Below the pieces are notes generated by a model. It did no database searches and was not told the origin of the DNA. It was given only the letters and a program-made list of their open reading frames with translations. This document shows, piece by piece, positions 10,043-54,226 of a stretch of 64,000 nucleotides of DNA (position 1 is the first letter of the stretch; each line of letters starts with the position of its first letter). The position numbers and the translations under genes were made by a program. Source of the stretch: Paramacrobiotus metropolitanus (Eukaryota > Tardigrada > Eutardigrada > Parachela > Macrobiotidae); the NCBI RefSeq assembly GCF_019649055.1, contig NW_026570302.1, forward strand, positions 248,001 to 312,000, in the 5' to 3' direction.

Positions 10043-10208
10043 TGCGTATATTAGTTATGAAACTAAAAATATGAAATTATTTTTTAAAAGTAGAGCATAT
10101 CATAACTGTAATAGTGGGCTAATGGCCGACCCAGTGCCCCCTCTCGGTGGCAGTCAGCATGACTCATAGCAGGAGTCAGTGTTCCGAATTTTTAATTCCT
10201 AATTTAAA

Positions 10209-11267
10209 ATGGCGTCAATGTCGAAGCGCGATTTTCGCGCTGTCATGTTCGCAAATTTTTTAAAAAAGATGAGCGCTATCCAGTGCCATTCGGAAATGGT
10301 GGTTTTATTCGGGAATCAGTGCCCTTCTTTGCGTACGATTGAGCGCTGGTTCTGGAGGTTTCGTGCGGAGAAATTTGATTTGGACGACGACTGCAGATCG
10401 GGACGGCCAGTCTCAGCGAGAACCCCGGAAACGATCGCCGCTGTAAAGCTCCTGATTGAGAAAGATCCTCATATAACGGTAAGGGAGATAGTTCAGGAAG
10501 TGGGGATTAGCGCTCCAGTTGTGGATGCAATTTTGCGTTCGGATCTTCAGCTACGGAAAGTAGTGTCCCGATGGGTCCCACATCTCCTCACTTCTGGTCA
10601 GAAACATTCTCGCGTGAAATTAGCCAAAGAAATACTGAAAGTTCTTTCGACCAAACGTCATTCCGAAATCTACACCGAGGATGAATCCTGGTTCGCGTAC
10701 TACGATCCCAAAAGGAAGCAACAAAACATGGTACGGATGTCAAAAGGCAGCGCGAGACCCACCACAGTGAAGCGTTCTCTCAGTGTCCGCAAGGTTATGT
10801 ACGCGATGGTATCCGGTAAAAGCGGGATAATTCATAAACAGTCCTTGGCAGCTAAAAGTACGGTGAACGCTGCATGGTACTGTAATAACGTCCTGGAACC
10901 TTTCTTTGAAAAGTTGCGAGAAAAACGCCCCACTAAAGGATTGACCGGTATAATTTATCACCACGACAACGCGCGTCCCCACACTGCTAATTATACAAAA
11001 AATTTTTTGACCGAATCGGGTGTGCGAATCCTTCCTCACCCTGCATATTCTCCTGACTTGGCCCCCCACGATTTCAAGATTTTCCCGAAACTGAAGAAAT
11101 TACTGCGAGGACAAAAGTTCGAAAATAACGAAGAACTCGAACGAAACCTTCAGGACGCCATCGGTTCTCTTGATCGTAACTTTTTTAAGGCAATGTTTAC
11201 TGAATGGATATCTAGATGTAGAAAGTGTATTGAGGTGGCAGGTGAATACTTTGAAAAGATCAAATGA
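10209..11267 (+). CDS. Mariner transposase (DD34D)
   Basis: 352 residues, the usual length for mariner-family transposases. The N-terminal half holds the paired helix-turn-helix DNA-binding region (IERWFWRFR, DCRSGRPVS), followed by the WVPHLL motif typical of the family. The catalytic triad is visible: the first Asp in TEDESWF, the second in HHDNARPH, and the third in YSPDLAPHDFKIFPKLK. Exactly 34 residues lie between the second and third Asp, which defines DD34D. It has a single exon starting at ATG 10209, 192 bp inside the left end. All key residues are present, so the enzyme is plausibly active. Confidence 0.95.
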   Translation: MASMSKRDFRAVMFANFLKKMSAIQCHSEMVVLFGNQCPSLRTIERWFWRFRAEKFDLDDDCRSGRPVSARTPETIAAVKLLIEKDPHITVREIVQEVGISAPVVDAILRSDLQLRKVVSRWVPHLLTSGQKHSRVKLAKEILKVLSTKRHSEIYTEDESWFAYYDPKRKQQNMVRMSKGSARPTTVKRSLSVRKVMYAMVSGKSGIIHKQSLAAKSTVNAAWYCNNVLEPFFEKLREKRPTKGLTGIIYHHDNARPHTANYTKNFLTESGVRILPHPAYSPDLAPHDFKIFPKLKKLLRGQKFENNEELERNLQDAIGSLDRNFFKAMFTEWISRCRKCIEVAGEYFEKIK

Positions 11268-11602: not shown

Positions 11603-12030
11603 TTCATGTTTTTCCCCTCGAAAATCCGATACGACTATTATTTCATGTTGTCTTCGGCAGTATAATGTGGTTACGCCCAAACAGCTGTTTGGGCCCTGCC
11701 TATGCCGATTCCACTTGGAGGCGATATATTGGCCCCATTGGCTCAGTGGTAGAGCATTAGTCTCGTAAACTAAGGGTCCTGGGTTCAATTCCCAGATGGG
11801 GCTAGTTTTTTTGTTTTTTTAGCGTTTAAATTTCAATAACAATTTGATTAGTGTACGGTACATCCGCGCAGGCTGATCTGATCTACGTACGTATCTGATT
11901 TCTAATGGCTTTGCTGAACAAATGAACTTGGCAGCGTGAGTCTGTTCACGTTTTTCCCCTCGAAAATTCGATTCGACCATCATTTTATTTTGTCTTCGGC
12001 AGGATTATGTGCGTTATGCTCAAACAGCTG
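11603..12030 (+). repeat. Direct repeat pair flanking the tRNA gene
   Basis: Segments 11603-11686 and 11943-12030 are diverged direct copies. Shared anchors are TTTTTCCCCTCGAAAAT, TGTCTTCGGCAG and CAAACAGCTG. They lie on either side of the tRNA-Thr gene. They could be remains of a local duplication or of flanking terminal repeats; I cannot assign them to a known element. Confidence 0.5.
11732..11803 (+). tRNA. tRNA-Thr (anticodon CGU)
   Basis: The 72-nt cloverleaf is complete. Acceptor GCCCCAT pairs with ATGGGGC (11796-11802) with discriminator T. The D arm contains TGGCTCAGTGG (Pol III A box). The anticodon stem TTAGT/ACTAA holds loop CTCGTAA with anticodon CGT at 11764-11766. The T arm CTGGG/CCCAG holds TTCAATT (B box GGTTCAATTCC). 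A T-run at 11806-11812 serves as Pol III terminator. No intron. It decodes ACG. Confidence 0.93.
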
Positions 12031-15078: not shown

Positions 15079-15792
15079 TCGGGCCCGCGCTCACGCTCGG
15101 ACTTGGACTACTAAAACTTGGACTTCACTTGGACTCTAAAACTTGGACTTCATTTGAACTCTAAAACTCCGACTTCATTTGGACTCTCATACTCCGACTT
15201 CACTTGGACTCTACAACTTGGACTTTATGACTTAGACTTGGAATTAGGCGTTTCTTATGTTTCTTATGTTTCTTAGGCGTTTCAGAATACCAAAGAATAC
15301 CTAGATAGCCTAAGAAATGTTAGTAACCTCAGAAACCTCAGAACACCCAACAAACCTCAGAAACCTAAGAAAACCAAAGAAGTCTCAGAAACCTAAGAAA
15401 CCTGAGAAACCTAAGAAACCTATGAACACCTAAGAAACCGAAAAAGCCTAAGAAAGCTAAGAAACCTGAGAAACCTAAGAAAACATGAAGAAACGTAAGA
15501 AGACAGGAGAAACGCCTAAATCTAAGTCTAAGTCATAAAGTCAGAGTTTAAGAGTCCGCAATACTAGTTAGAAACTTAGAATGCGCATTAGATTGACGAT
15601 AAAATGGCGGACAAATCACAAGCACGCAAACACAACCAGTTGTTTGTCGTGTTAAGCTGACAGTTTCAACTTTCTACCGATGTGAGGGCCCGCGCTCAAG
15701 CTCGGACTTGGACTACTAAAACTTGGACTTGGACTTCACTTGGACTCTAAAACTCGGACTTCACTTGGACTCTAAAAACTCGGACTTCACTT
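15079..15792. repeat. CTTGGACTCTAAAA arrays around a foldback
   Basis: Arrays of about 20-bp units (ACTTGGACTCTAAAACTTGG and variants) occupy about 15100-15236 and 15695-15792. Each is introduced by GGGCCCGCGCTCA.GCTCGG. Between them, 15209-15255 and 15508-15556 are inverted copies of one another. They enclose a CCTAAGAAAC-type simple repeat, the reverse complement of the TTTCTTAGG repeat found elsewhere in the window. Confidence 0.6.
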
Positions 15793-15831
15793 GTGCGTTT
15801 TTATTCCCATAATTACATAAATTCGCAGAAC

Positions 15832-16594
15832 ATGTCTTGCGGAATCTTCCAACCGACCAGCGTCGATGCCCTGGACCAGAACGGCTTGGTTCGCCACGGA
15901 CGAGTTGTTGATGTCGCTGATAGCGGGTTTTTCGTCGATCTGCTGTATCCCAGCGCACGATGCCACTTCTCGTACGGAAGCGACGTTTTCCTGACCCAAA
16001 AATGAAGATGGATGGATAGAGAAATCGTCGATCTAACTGGTCAGCAAGGGGCCGAAAGTAATCTCGTCGATGTCCTGATGCGCGAATCATCTACTTCACC
16101 ATGAACATGGTTTCCTGCGGAGATGGTCGATCTGGCGCACTATGTTTTGCCCGAATGGTACGAAGCAGCTGTAGTTCAGTGGGGCGACGATTTGACTCGC
16201 ATGTATATCGTGTCTGCTTCCTGTTCGGGTTTGGATACTGTGAGTGAATTCAAGCAAATACCGAAGGAGTTATGGTTGAAGGTGTTTTCCCAACTGGACA
16301 TGCCGACGCAAACTAAGCTGCGTGCGGTTTGCTCAGTGTGGAACGATAAATCTGAACCTTATGATTGGCAACGTCAAGAAAGAGAATGTAGATCGGATCG
16401 TTTATTTCATGTTATCATCCATTTTTGCCCGTTTGATAGCATCCACAAAACGTATCATCGTGGTTGATCGAGATGAGAAGTTCAACCGGTATCATATGTT
16501 GGATATTTTTGACATGATCAAGTGTGTGGCAGCGCGCAACCCGCGGATTCACCTCAAATCGATCCAGTTAGTGGGCTTCGGGTCAGCTTTTTAA
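15832..16594 (+). pseudogene. FF5: truncated, rearranged FF paralogue
   Basis: Starts MSCGIFQPTSVDAL and encodes the first Tudor-like barrel up to GSDVFLTQK, then a stop (16003-16005). The second barrel resumes at VDVLMRES and has a stop in the PWTWFP motif (16102-16104). The remaining barrel joins without an intron to the F-box part of exon 2 (IPKELWLKVFSQLDMPTQTKLRAV). After the F-box the frame shifts again, then DRIVYFMLSSIFARL... runs to a stop at 16592. Intron 1, the KH0-like segment and exon 3 are missing. The sequence groups with FF2, FF4 and FF7. Upstream lie the CTTGGACT arrays. Confidence 0.8.
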
Positions 16595-25894: not shown

Positions 25895-27760
25895 TTAGAG
25901 TTCCATAATGCAATCCGCGTTAGAATCCGTCAGCAAGATGAGGAAGTGTATCGCAATCCGGGTTAGCTTCTCCAGCTGCAACTCGTGCAGTCCATCAGCG
26001 CACCATTTCTTCCCGCGATAATGCGAGTGTGGACGAGGATCCGTAGTCTGCGTTGCACACAACACCTGCAAAGATAATACCTGGAGACAACTGTTCCTGA
26101 TCCCGATGGCTCCCGCTTTTGAATAAATGAGTCTGTTAAAAAAAAAAAAACTCACGTGCACTGGTTACTATTTCCTTAGCAATAATTTAGGTTGTTCAAG
26201 TTTTTCTTACAGTTTAAATTGATCCTTAGTTTCCTTAGGGTTCAAGTTTTCTTACGTTTAATTTCCTAGTTTCCACGGGATTTCTCAGGTTCCTTTGTTT
26301 TTTGTTTCTTAGGTTTTTGAGTTTTTCTCCTCTTTTTCAGGTTGTATCAGAATATTTTTTAAGCAACTTTTGAAATACGACGGAGAAAAAATAGCAAAAT
26401 GAAAAAAAGAACACACTATAAAACCCGTAAGATTATCTATGTCCTTATTAAAAATTTTTAAAACTTCGCTTCCCCCCTAAGAATAAACCTAAGACAATCT
26501 TAGAAACTTAGATCATGCAACTGGGGAAAAAGTCCCAACTTCGGCGCGCGAGCTGTTTTTGTGCTACCGGCAAGGGACACGTTCTCGATTCTCTTGTTTA
26601 CAACCAAACGTGACTGTCTCACCTGGCTTACTGCATCGCTCCAGACCGATGCCGCGTGTGATTTCTCACTTTGTTCGGCAATCATGACATGAATTCAGAC
26701 AGCACTTCCAGCTGGTTGAGACTAACAGCCGGCAGACACATTTCCAGAGCATCCCACATTGCCCACTCCATGTCATCATTGTTCAACAATCGAATCAACT
26801 GGACGTCGATATCTGGTGTGCGTTGTCGGAAACGAAGGAATGACAGGGCGATACGCAGACCCACCGTGCAGCTCATCAGCTGGATCAAAGTGCACGGAAG
26901 ACCCCGGCAGGCTGCGATGAAATGACCAAAATCGCTCAGCCGAACGCGGGAGCTAAGCAAATGATTGTTGTCATAACTCGGATGTTGTTTACATTCATTC
27001 CGATTATAGAATCCGTAACCCGGGTTAATTTCGAAGCGACAGCGGAAGCCGAGCAGAAAATGGCTGCACATTTAATTCCTGAGTTGTGCGCCGCAACATA
27101 ACGTATCATGTCTGATACGTGCAAAAACGCATCGTCGCTGATCAAGTGCCACCAATCAGCCATAATGATGCGCTGGGTCGATGCGCGCAGACATTTGAAG
27201 ATAGGAGCTGTCAGAAGATAATCAAGGCAGTCGTCACTTCCCAACCCGTCGAAGCTTGTCACCACAAGATTTGCAGTTAACAATGGCGAATCCAGAATAG
27301 TATTCCATGTTGAGCAAACAACGCGCAACTTCGTCTGAGTGATTGTATTCAGATGGGAAAACACTTCCAGCCACAACTCCGGTGGCAGACTGTCTCTGTA
27401 ATGTCGGCAGTTTTGGACTGCAGTGTTCCGAGCAACCCTGGAAGACTTTCAATCAAACGGCGGTGGAATTTACCAACAGGATTCTGCAAAAATGTACGGT
27501 ACATCAGCAATGAAAAATGTATCAATCGCGCCGCGCGCGTATGTGTTCTAGTTTACCGAAAAATGGTCATGTTTTCTCTCGCCGCAAAATCGTTCCTCGA
27601 GATAATGCAATCGCCCATCTTTCACCTCCACGAATGTAACTAGCCGCTGACGTAGCACATTATTGGCATGGTTGGGTTGCACCGTTCCACATCGCAAAAT
27701 TTCGGACCGTGGCACATTCCATCTATATCTACACATGTGGCACGGTTTGTTTTGCCACGA
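25895..27760 (-). pseudogene. FF9: FF paralogue, 5' half replaced by satellite
   Basis: Exon 3 (25895-26065, VLCATQTTDPRPHSHYRGKKWC) is intact. Exon 2 (26623-27483) has at least three frame changes: before the F-box (near 27395), near 27065 between RYVAAHNSG and FLLGFRCRF, and near 26690 where ATGTC is inserted in SEFMIAEQ. Exon 1 survives only as its KH0-like end (27557 to about 27760: RLVTFVEVKDGRLHYLEERF), with a usable donor GTAAAC. Upstream of it the coding sequence stops abruptly at the 20-bp satellite array, so both Tudor-like barrels are gone. Confidence 0.78.
26225..26345. repeat. TTTCTTAGG-type degenerate simple repeat in FF9 intron 2
   Basis: Irregular TTCCTTAGG / TTTCTTACG / TTTCTTAGG units. 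It belongs to the same low-complexity family as 28705-28950 and 29765-29995. Confidence 0.5.
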
Positions 27761-27783
27761 AGATCGGTAAATTTCCAGTCCAA

Positions 27784-28150
27784 CGTACCTATGCAACCCA
27801 ACGTAACCCAACGCAACCGCCACGCAACTGCATGCCACCCAACGCAACTGCACGCAACCCAACGCAACTGCATGCAGCCCAACGCAACTGCATGCAACAC
27901 AACGTAACCGCATGCCACCCAACGCAACTGCACGCAACCCAACGCAACTGCATGCAGCCCAACGCAACTGCATGCAACCCAACGCAACTGCATGCAACCC
28001 AACGCAACTGCATGCAACCCAACGCAACTGCATGCAACCCAACGCAACTGCATGCAACCCAACGCAACTGCACGCAACCCAACGCAACTGCATGCAACCC
28101 AACGCAACTCCACGAAACGTAACGCAATCGCATGCAACCCAGCGCAACTC
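27784..28150. repeat. 20-bp satellite array (about 18 units)
   Basis: Unit CCCAACGCAACTGCATGCAA is repeated head to tail. Many units are identical and others carry CACGCAA, CATGCCA or CATGCAG variants. Part of the array shows an 80-bp higher-order period (27837 onward repeats at 27917). Because 20 is not a multiple of 3, the array yields open frames in several phases on both strands (MQPNATACNPTQL and VALGCMQLRWVA types); I regard these as artefacts. Confidence 0.93.
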
Positions 28151-28175
28151 TACTTAATTTCATGTATCTTCATAT

Positions 28176-49617: not shown

Positions 49618-51597
49618 CTACTCTCGCCGGCAAATTAAACTGAAGGGATGCCTTTTGTCCGCTCCCTTATTACATGCCAGGAGAACTAGAAGCCCCAGTG
49701 CAGTGCGAGACAGCTTTTCCGGTTGCACATTCCGCGATCCATCAACGCACCATTTTTTCCCGCGGTAATATGTCGACGGACGCGGATCCGACGTCTGCAA
49801 GGAGCACAGTATCTGCAAAACCTAAAAACGAAACCAATGCTTGCAGTGCAGAACCACGTCAATTAAAGATCATTACCTCGCATGCCGCGTCTTGCCGTTT
49901 CGCTTCATCTTTCGATGAAGCGATTTGCTCGTTGGCAATCCAAGCCAGGAACTTTGACAGCGTTTGCATTTGCTCGTCACTAGTGGCCGGCAAATTCATT
50001 TCCATCGCTTCCCACATAGCGCACTCTAGGTCATCGGTGTTCATCAGTCGAATCACACGGGCATCGAAAAACAGAGATGGCAGGCGTCTGTCAGGCGTTC
50101 TATCATGGATGAAAAGCTCATGTGTGCAGCGGACGTAGTAAACCCGGTCGCACGGCAACCAGCGCCATGCTGCCATCCAGCTGTCGGAAAGCCCTTCACC
50201 ACGGTTAGGCAAATTGTTAGAGTCTTTAAAATGCACTCCACAAACATCTCGTTGAGTGTCTTTATAATGAATCGTTCTGGTGGCAAACGAGATGCAAACA
50301 GCAACCAGATAAATCGCTGTTAATCGAATTTCGGGGTTGGCTTCCGCAACGTAACGAATCATGTCCGCAATTTTCAGGAAGCCCTCAATCTGGAGCCGCT
50401 CGCATCCGTCAGCAACAATGATACGACGTGTGGATGCGCTTAGGCATTTGAAGATTGGAGATGTCAGAGGGTAATCCAGTCGGCCACGGTCACTACTGCA
50501 TTCTGAACACTGGGTACAAACGTTAGCAGTTAACAGAGGTGAATTTAGAACATGGTTCCACATTAAGCAGACAGTGCGCAGCTTGGCCTGCGTCCTCGTG
50601 CTCAGGTGGGAGAACACTTCCAGCCACAACTCCGGCGGCAATCCAGCATAAATTACCGTTGCCTTTGAAACTTCGGAGGCCTCGGACGTTTTGGTGATAC
50701 TGAGAAGGCGTTCAATCAGTTTCACATGGAACGCATCGAGTTCTGCCTGCAAAAACCTTTGGTAGAAGTTCTCCGATTCTGATAATAGCAGTGGTTACTG
50801 TGGCCAGGTCAAAACCCACAAATAAAACGCTTACATAAAATAACGAAGTAATAACGAAGTTCACTATTTAAAACAAAATAATAACGAAGTTCACTATTAA
50901 AAGCTGATCATTTAGTACATCAGTATATACAAATACTAACCGCAGCTAATTCGGGTACTGTCTGATGATCGACGTAAAACAAACTTCCATTCACAATCTC
51001 CACAATCGCTCCAAAGATATTACGCGTTCCCAGGTCGGAAAAACATCGCACCTTTTCGCGGCCCAGCTGTTTACGCAGTTCTTTGGCTGACATTGACGGA
51101 AAATCATCAGGCAGCTGCATTCTCCGCATTACAAAAGTCCGACTTCCAACGAGCTTGGCGCCCGTACCGTTGGGCACGGGCCAGCGTAGACGCTCAATGG
51201 GAACGATTTCCGAACGAGCATAATTTTCGCCCCATCGGACGATAGCCGTATAATTATACCATCCGCGGCTTTTTCTGGTGCAGCGCGCTGGATTCACAAC
51301 CTCAGCCGGCACCCACGTCCACGGATCCGAAAGGTTTTCGCGTTGCAGCAGTTCCACCGGGATATGACGTTCTGGTTGTTTTTCCCAGCTACACACCAGT
51401 TGACCTGGATCAACATTACGATCCATTGCGAGAAGGAAAACCCCGCTGCCGAAAGGAAAGAAGCGACGTCGTGCGCGGCTGCACAGAAAGTCCACAGTGT
51501 ATCCGAGGTCAGTCAAGCCCACCACTCGTCCATAGCGAGCCACTCCATCGCTGTCGACCACATCCACACTGTTTGTGCGATAGACTAATCTCAGCAT
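49618..51597 (-). CDS. FF15: FMRP-like Tudor-KH0 / F-box protein, intact
   Basis: Exons: 50941-51597, 49877-50746 and 49618-49812, about 573 residues. Intron 1 is 194 bp (GTTAGT to TTTTGCAG) and intron 2 is 64 bp (GTAATG to TTTTGCAG). This copy shows the FMRP likeness best. Barrel 1 is SVDVVDSDGVARYGRVV..LGYTVDF...RRRFFPFGSGVF. Barrel 2 is PVELLQRENLSDPWTWVP...RSEIVPIERLRWPVPN. Then TFVMRRMQLPDDFPSMSAKE begins the KH0-like segment, ending in IVEIVNGSLFYVDH. Human FMRP has EIVTIERLR..NPN, then DTFHKIKLDVPEDL and MCAKE in the same order. Exon 2 has LPPELWLEVFSHLSTRTQAKLRTV..MWN (F-box). Exon 3 has DPRPSTYYRGKKWC and the longest tail. Substrate unknown. Confidence 0.85.
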
Positions 51598-52950: not shown

Positions 52951-53369
52951 ACAGTACCTGTAACAGCCAGTCTTTGCCGTTGTGTGGTCTGCGTACAGTA
53001 TTACAGTTTCATACCATAAAGAATCTAACTGCCTACCAACGAAACAATTTCAGTACAGTACCTTACTCTGTCTTAATAGGATACGCGATACTAAACGGAC
53101 TGTTGTAAAATGTGGCCTGTGGGTGTCTGTACCTTTTTTCGTGAGGATCGGAATAATAAAATTGCATTATATCTGTATATGCATTTTTAAATTTTATGCT
53201 TCGAACAGCAGGAAGAATCTCTGTGCTGTGGTGATAGTCGCATTTTTCAAACGTGAAGTGGCTCATTTTTTTAAGGTTAATTTAACGGGATAAGCTTTTA
53301 AAACGGTTTTTTCCAAAGGTCACCGGGCACGGTGAAGGAAATCTTGCCGGCAAAGTCAAAGCAAAGGAG

Positions 53370-53575
53370 AAGACCCGGACTAACACTGCGATGCATTCCG
53401 AGGAGGAAAACCTTGCTGTCGAAAGGAAAGAAGGGCCGTCGCGCGCGGCCTCACAGAAAGTCCACAAAGAACCCCAGATCAGTCACATCTACCACTCGTC
53501 GTCACATATACCACTACTCCATCGACCATCGCAACCCACTACATCCACACTACCTGTCTGGTGGACTCCGCTTAT
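53370..53575 (-). pseudogene. FF16: exon 1 relic
   Basis: On the minus strand SGVHQTGSVDVVGCDG, then VVDVTDLGFFVDFL-stop, then RARRPFFPFDSKVFLL matches the first Tudor-like barrel of the family, closest to FF15. An internal duplication and a stop break it, and no other exon is present. Confidence 0.65.
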
Positions 53576-53579
53576 AAAC

Positions 53580-54226
53580 ATGCTTAACCTGGTATCGTGT
53601 TCATCGCAATGAATAAGCAATTAGTGTCATTTGAATTTTGGATACAGAAAAAGAGACCAATTTACGAAATCGTTAGCAGGACGCAATTAAATTCATTCCA
53701 TCGAATTTTGCTGTGGAGCATGGATTTTTGGTTTACGGGAACAAAAACCTTGTAACGAGTGAATGCGAATTGTGTTGCATGCCAGCTCATTAATATGGAA
53801 CACGCTCAAAATTAAAAAAACGGTTTCCGATTTTCGTATCCAGAGTCTAAGTAACGTGTGTGATCATAAACGTGGTTTTGACCACAAAGCAAATTTGCAC
53901 GTGCTCAACTACGGGTAGACTGCGGTACAGAATGCATCAAAAATTTGCCTAAACGGGAGTCCAAAACTCATCATTCAGGATTTCAGTAGTTCACGAAATT
54001 TTGTAACCGACAACCTTCCGTAATCGGTAGTTGAATTTAACTAAAAAAAACAAGATCCGCTCTGCCATCTTTGCTAAAATAATACGAATATCGACACGAC
54101 TACTTATTCAGCGGAGTTTTTGCAGTAACTAAGTTACAACAGAATTAGTAAGAACAACAGTCAACGTTGTAAACAAGGAGCTGCATCTGAAACCCAGTCG
54201 CTGACAGCATCCCTCCCACGGCCAGT
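53580..54226. other. Intergenic, no gene seen
   Basis: AT-rich spacer between the FF16 relic and FF17. Part of 54050-54180 resembles the 3' flank of FF19 (60640-60800), which supports duplication of FF17 and FF19 as larger blocks. Confidence 0.35.

Follow-up and report, generated by a model that had tools for sequence, protein, structure and literature searches.

What kind of protein is encoded by a gene that joins a tandem Tudor module of the FMRP type to an F-box? The question is raised by a locus of the tardigrade Paramacrobiotus metropolitanus, situated in a window of 64,000 nucleotides (the whole stretch of DNA analysed) that corresponds to bases 248001-312000 of contig C82 (NW_026570302.1); the genome searched comprises 169.8 Mb in 533 contigs, and L- and C-numbers are the locus and contig labels of this analysis. 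Members of a single gene family are arrayed in tandem along the window, on both strands. The focal gene occupies positions 49618-51597 on the minus strand and has three predicted exons, encoding 219, 290 and 64 residues, for a protein of 573 aa (Table 1). The reading regarded here as probable is that in this protein an FMRP-type module (Tudor 1, Tudor 2 and a KH0-like part) is followed by an F-box and then by a C-terminal region of alpha/beta type that bears a short conserved tail, and that the protein is a putative SCF adaptor, its binding to Skp1 and its target being inferred.

The limits of the gene had been given exactly in the original prediction: exon 1 opens at 51597 with the A of its ATG, and the exon-3 stop codon closes at 49618. 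Only two exons had been described, and it is the presence of the third (ILCSLQTSDPRP...GKKWCVDG...) that explains the lower coordinate; queries with exon 3 match 16 window ORFs at E<=1e-3, some of them weakly. Splice sites are predictions from the sequence and from comparison with other copies, without transcript. The motifs on which the likeness to FMRP and the F-box had been founded (RRRFFPFGSGVF, VELLQRENLSDPWTWVPAEVV, SEIVPIERLR, TFVMRRMQLPDDFPSMSAKEL and LPPELWLEVFSHL...LRTVCLMW) are all present in the focal copy, and the FMRP motifs given for comparison agree with the FMRP chains in the PDB. The statement that every copy carries them was too strong, several window copies being decayed or frameshifted (among them those at 15751-16591, 53301-53620 and 27551-28153).

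Table 1. Predicted features of the focal gene, in window coordinates
Feature	Position	Strand	Basis
Exon 1, FMRP-type tandem Tudor + KH0-like module, 219 aa	50941..51597	-	ORF; AF2 model; Foldseek and VIA-align matches to FMRP
Tudor barrel 1, residues 9-56	51430..51573	-	Strands 10-55 in model; FMR1 Tudor 1 by hhalign, 37.6
Tudor barrel 2, residues 78-141, with invariant W95	51175..51366	-	Strands 79-133 in model; FMR1 Tudor 2, 31.1
KH0-like segment, residues 152-213	50959..51144	-	Model; VIA-align match to 4ova_C up to residue 214
Intron 1, GTTAGT...TTTTTGCAG, 194 bases, phase 0	50747..50940	-	Predicted from sequence and other copies; no transcript
Exon 2, 290 aa, F-box + C-terminal alpha/beta region	49877..50746	-	ORF; Pfam
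F-box	50513..50644	-	PF12937 7.3e-8, PF00646 4.9e-7; whole-genome scan agrees on place
C-terminal alpha/beta part of exon 2; may be a degenerate substrate domain, LRR-like	49877..50512	-	AF2 pLDDT 63; weak matches
Intron 2, GTAATG...TTTTGCAG, 64 bases, phase 0	49813..49876	-	Predicted from sequence
Exon 3, 64 aa + stop, conserved GKKWCVDG motif	49618..49812	-	Translation; window matches

Likeness of exon 1 to the FMRP N-terminus

Alignment of ten exon-1 copies from the window, all but one of which have a start codon, gave 26 identical columns, and the fold of the focal copy was predicted by AF2. The model (mean pLDDT 76.8, pTM 0.72) displays two five-strand barrels followed by a smaller, KH0-like alpha/beta piece, ordered beta-alpha-alpha-beta-beta from residue 155 to 211 and of uneven quality (pLDDT 48-87 by blocks of ten). 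When compared by Foldseek with 350,542 PDB chains, all ten matches at E<=0.001 were FMRP, FXR1 or FXR2, the best being 4qvz_B (E 6.6e-10, 215 columns); the next protein outside this group was BAHCC1. Alignment with 4ova_C by VIA-align gave a Z of 10.2 for 172 aligned residues (model range 7-214) with an rmsd of 7.4, a value suggesting that the domains are perhaps placed differently. The N-terminus of FMRP, FXR1 and FXR2 (tandem Agenet/Tudor and KH0; 4ova, 4qvz, 4qw2, 3h8z and 3o8v) shares with the modelled exon 1 the order and fold of its two barrels and of a KH0-like piece, and the key motifs are aligned by profile.

In sequence the likeness is distant, with an identity to FMRP/FXR of only about 20-28%. 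A profile of 24 exon-1 copies drawn from several subfamilies matched ten distinct PDB sequences, the first six being FMRP, FXR2 and FXR1 (E 4.4e-5 to 2.7e-4; best coverage at profile positions 13-188) and the remaining four uL24m (E 0.003-0.008), whereas with the profile of the ten window copies uL24m (0.025) came ahead of FMRP, which scored no better than E 0.30-0.36. The uL24m chains (7aoi_AY, 6hiv_AY, 7ane_O and 7aih_O) match the Tudor 2 part weakly, around sPWtWfP, at E 0.003-0.9, which is probably a small-barrel likeness.

Another reference is the FMR1 that the genome itself possesses elsewhere (L001/L005), with Tudor_FRX1 at 49.5 bits, KH_9 at 64.5 bits and a match to PDB FMRP at E 6.5e-36. 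Alignment of the exon-1 profile with the N-terminus of this FMR1 by hhalign scored 63.3 (E 2.9e-9), as against 24.8 for the best of 200 shuffles, 15.8 for the reversed control, and 40.6 and 27.4 for the best and next of 195 non-family ORFs; with 24 copies the score rose to 77.1, the best of 200 shuffles being 17.8. The ORF that gave 40.6 (L013:2797-3690, in the C82 array) is Tudor-like by eye only, and no Tudor is found in it by Pfam. Taken alone, Tudor 1 and Tudor 2 of FMR1 scored 37.6 and 31.1 against the exon-1 profile, whereas the KH0 part scored 16.8, and in another run 17.1, with the best of 100 shuffles at 16.5. Since each Tudor is recognised alone and the KH0 part is not, the Tudor-Tudor-KH0 N-terminus announced in the original prediction is unevenly supported: Tudor 1 and Tudor 2 are secure, by sequence and by structure, whereas KH0 has the support of the predicted model only. 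The barrels, the alpha/beta piece behind them and the closeness to FMRP among PDB structures are as had been expected, and the match to the FXR type is far above what chance would give.

A Pfam scan of the ten window exon-1 copies gave nothing of use and no Tudor_FRX1 match. In the genome PF18336 (Tudor_FRX1) was found at 27 places, three of which, all below the cut-off, lie inside matches to the exon-1 family (C65:323715, C65:314925 and C118:253760). It was also the best Pfam match, again always below the cut-off, in three of ten further proteins: L009, which belongs to the family (0.0011), and L016 (1.3e-4) and L004 (1.9e-5), two relatives with a Tudor exon. A phmmer search with L009 alone placed FXR1 behind sialidases and FtsI.

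F-box, exon linkage and selection

At E<=1 in Pfam, PF00646 was detected in 13 of 13 exon-2 copies and PF12937 in 9 of 13; the F-box that had been predicted in exon 2 exceeds both cut-offs in the focal copy, and some other copies fall below. By this domain assignment, family members are F-box proteins. The AF2 model of exon 2 is weak (pLDDT 63), and the F-box fold is not confidently displayed in it. Foldseek gave nothing in the PDB at E<=0.001 for this model, VIA-align did not exceed a Z of 5.6, with leucine-rich repeats of the NLR type prominent, and the exon-2 profile had no PDB match below E 0.14, the best being the F-box of KDM2B. No convincing Pfam family was found in the remainder of exon 2, and FTH (PF01827) and FBA2 (PF07735) were absent from the 13 copies at E<=1. 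With so poor a model and such weak matches, an LRR-like C-terminus is merely hinted at, and an alpha/beta substrate domain, perhaps LRR-like, is only a guess from the model.

Several features tie exon 2 to exon 1. It lies downstream on the same strand in all 26 copies considered, i.e. the exon-1 copies with their 3' end present in the window and in loci L006-L015, some of them frameshifted fragments. In the copies inspected by eye, GT and AG stand at the expected intron ends and the joint is in phase 0. At L006 (C195) both modules occur about 20 codons apart in one stop-free frame of 454 aa, from which the second part of the KH0 segment is missing, and at L007 (C106) a frame of 650 aa spans all three exons and may read through an in-frame intron. 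Both exons are under purifying selection, dN/dS being 0.22-0.36 in exon-1 pairs (n=7) and 0.17-0.39 in exon-2 pairs (n=8); by segment, the values are 0.11-0.35 for Tudor 1, 0-0.39 for Tudor 2, 0.17-0.43 for KH0 and 0.08-0.64 for the F-box. The observation of a fused FMRP-like Tudor module and F-box is confirmed.

In FMRP and FXR proteins the module is followed by KH1, KH2 and RGG, and in the tardigrade family by the F-box instead. Pfam at E<=1 gave only the F-box in the 650-aa frame of L007 and no KH match in 13 exon-2 copies, and the focal exons and L007 contain no RGG triplet. As no KH1, KH2 or RGG was found in the copies searched, the family members are not members of the FMRP/FXR family.

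Possible role of the encoded proteins

F-box proteins are known to bind Skp1 and to deliver targets to Cul1 ligases. If the tardigrade F-box likewise binds Skp1, the protein would be placed in an SCF (Skp1-Cul1-F-box) ubiquitin ligase, where a target would be held by the Tudor-Tudor-KH0 module, by the C-terminal region or by both, and would then be ubiquitylated. The original interpretation of the architecture in these terms is supported, and family members are most likely SCF adaptors; the recruitment of methyl-lysine-bearing proteins or FMRP partners, which had also been suggested, is inference only, and no target is known. Skp1 binding, the SCF role and the holding of a target are inferred, as distinct from the architecture, the predicted exon-1 fold, the F-box recognised by sequence, the exon linkage and the purifying selection. 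The Tudor-Tudor-KH0 head may be the target-binding part, by analogy with the extra N-terminal domain of the Caenorhabditis A2 F-box family (PMC12062965, in the portion available); according to the same partial source, the predicted partners of A2 proteins mostly contact the N-terminus. The conserved Tudor core suggests that many members could read one target class, either a methylated residue or a shared partner of the FMRP module, and specificity may be tuned by the KH0-like and C-terminal parts, which vary more.

Weak binding of trimethylated lysine peptides, with a Kd of hundreds of micromolar, is described for FXR tandem Tudors in the accessible part of PMC2970552; from that part, the FXR pocket residues cannot be mapped with certainty onto exon 1. 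Residue W95, aligned with the first Trp of the FMRP WW pair, is Trp in 24 of 24 copies, W93 in 22 of 24, and W122, aligned with an FMRP Tyr, in 17 of 24. With W95 invariant and W122 conserved in part only, methyl reading is possible for many members and has been demonstrated for none. A bolder proposal, speculative and on present evidence unlikely, is that the FMRP module has become a mass-produced SCF docking head, with hundreds of adaptors that would recognise a mark or partner normally read by FMRP and clear chosen proteins of RNPs or chromatin, perhaps as a way of rebuilding RNP granules on drying and rewetting.

Three known systems offer partial parallels. UHRF1 is an E3 ligase with a tandem Tudor and a RING. 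As inferred for the tardigrade family, tandem Tudor and ubiquitin-ligase function are united in one protein, and the tandem Tudor of UHRF1 is among the Foldseek matches; however, UHRF1 is a RING-type E3 and not an SCF adaptor, and its match is far weaker than that of FMRP (E 7.3e-3 versus 6.6e-10). Fbxo4, an SCF adaptor that degrades FXR1 (PMC5688124, partial text), also connects an F-box protein to the FXR family, but FXR1 is its substrate, and no FXR module within Fbxo4 is mentioned in that partial text. The A2 proteins of Caenorhabditis (Mos1-type HTH, F-box and FTH; PMC12062965) are likewise, as far as the available text describes them, a large lineage-specific family in which an additional N-terminal domain precedes the F-box and a C-terminal region follows it; their N-terminal domain is a transposase HTH, whereas that of the tardigrade family is an FMRP-type Tudor module, and neither FTH nor FBA2 was found in 13 exon-2 copies of the latter.

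No published description of the Tudor-F-box family was found, which does not prove its absence from print. Among openly licensed papers, no such family was apparent from the titles and opening lines of abstracts on tardigrades and F-box, nor among the matches listed for FMRP, Tudor or Agenet with F-box, of which only such parts were available; nor did term look-ups in PMC11191345, PMC5531438, PMC8665587 and PMC12062965, each limited to the passages concerned, reveal one.

Other readings of the family have to be weighed. One, unlikely but not ruled out, is that the Tudor-Tudor module pairs with FMRP-type N-termini, in FMRP or in other members, and not with methyl marks, and that FMRP-containing RNP particles, or fellow members of the family, are what these proteins control. 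Among known folds FMRP/FXR in particular, KH0 part included, comes closest, and not a generic Tudor; the genome also encodes an FMR1 bearing Tudor_FRX1 and KH_9; the position aligned with the FMRP aromatic is not conserved throughout; and an F-box protein that degrades FXR1 is on record (PMC5688124, in its accessible portion). With identity to FMRP/FXR so low, a shared interface is unproven, and there is no dimer model.

That the family is an arms-race set directed against viruses, transposons or selfish elements, with the Tudor module as a mere scaffold, is rather doubtful. Hundreds of copies, many in tandem and several decayed in the window, are what it can call upon, together with comparable giant F-box expansions in Caenorhabditis (PMC8665587 and PMC12062965, both in part). 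It has to face a dN/dS that exceeds 1 in no segment with a defined value and reaches at most 0.92, for a linker of 18 codons; two of the values for linkers are undefined, and the 15 comparisons are pairwise and non-independent, without a site-level test.

It is quite improbable that exon 1 belongs with the Agenet or Royal-family tandem Tudors, without common descent with FMRP, and resembles it only through a common fold. Other tandem Tudors and Agenets do match the exon-1 model (VIA-align Z 7-8.5), uL24m appears in the 24-copy search and precedes FMRP with the smaller profile, and one member used alone in phmmer reaches FXR1 only at E 0.97. Yet FMRP/FXR stand apart in Foldseek (6.6e-10 versus 1.3e-3 for the next protein), the structural match to FMRP extends beyond the Tudors, and the 24-copy profile ranks FMRP/FXR first. 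Finally, the idea that exons 1 and 2 are separate genes or pseudogenes, merely adjacent, can draw on the lack of transcript evidence and on several broken copies, and is scarcely tenable in view of the 26 same-strand pairs out of 26, the GT-AG ends and phase-0 joint in those inspected, the single-frame copies at L006 and L007 and dN/dS values well below 1.

F-box families of giant size have been described in nematodes and plants; to our knowledge, none carries an FMRP-type Tudor module. Understood as putative SCF adaptors, the members of a gene family so large in a tardigrade suggest a large set of unstudied protein-degradation adaptors, and a large set of F-box genes in a stress-tolerant animal becomes legible. 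The fusion would also offer, through natural ligase variants, a direct route to what the FMRP N-terminus binds, of relevance to fragile X biology.

Extent of the family and its neighbours in the array

The family is very large in P. metropolitanus and largely tandem. The genome search with exon 2 gave at least 129 matches (about 150 of 843 candidates scored) and that with exon 1 at least 150 (about 150 of 792); two divergent exon-1 queries gave at least 152 and at least 151 (about 150 of 1051 and of 568). Merging the 150 matches listed for each of the three exon-1 queries yields 431 places matching at least one of them. These are matching places and not proven genes, and the weak matches, down to E 2.7e-4, were not checked singly. 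The figure is perhaps inflated, some C35/C195 and C68 entries resembling allelic or assembly duplicates, and is lowered by the fact that only 150 matches are listed per query.

A Tudor exon was found upstream on the same strand in 12 of 14 other F-box loci, hand-picked and not random, the weakest of the 12 being L026 (E 9.6e-5). At L030 and at L028, the latter an F-box gene whose LRR match is weak, the stretch examined contained no Tudor exon; for L030 one lies about 6 kb away in the genome search, and the stretch was maybe too short. From this proportion, the Tudor + F-box architecture may dominate the F-box genes of P. metropolitanus, as far as a hand-picked sample can tell. Among L031-L034, chosen from the Tudor_FRX1 list, L033 alone matches the exon-1 profile (E 9e-6).

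A second group of Tudor genes is seen at L002-L004 and L035-L037 (C106 and C209), with the first Tudor on its own exon; three of its places are above the Tudor_FRX1 cut-off, one of them only together with its neighbours. Of the possible F-box pieces noticed by eye downstream in L035 and L036, one matched in Pfam at E 0.022 and the other had no match; neither was counted. A further divergent frame is found at L016:514-1542 (C114; Tudor_FRX1 1.3e-4), and a large cluster of weak exon-1 matches with some F-box matches at about 430-1236 kb of C19, perhaps another subfamily.

Within the window, the decayed copy at 15751-16591 (+) retains part of Tudor 2 and the F-box in one short frame. In that at 27551-28153 (-), exon 1 contains about 18 tandem copies of a 20-base repeat (27791-28149), an array that by eye sits just before the apparent remaining KH0 end. 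The array also harbours an open mariner-type transposase frame of 354 aa at 10203-11264 (+), with HTH_48 at 4.5e-12 and Transposase_1 at 9e-6; HTH_48 is named for Mos1, and a Mos1-type HTH is fused to Caenorhabditis F-box genes according to the part of PMC12062965 at hand. A tRNA-Thr (CGT) lies inside the array at 11731-11804 (+).
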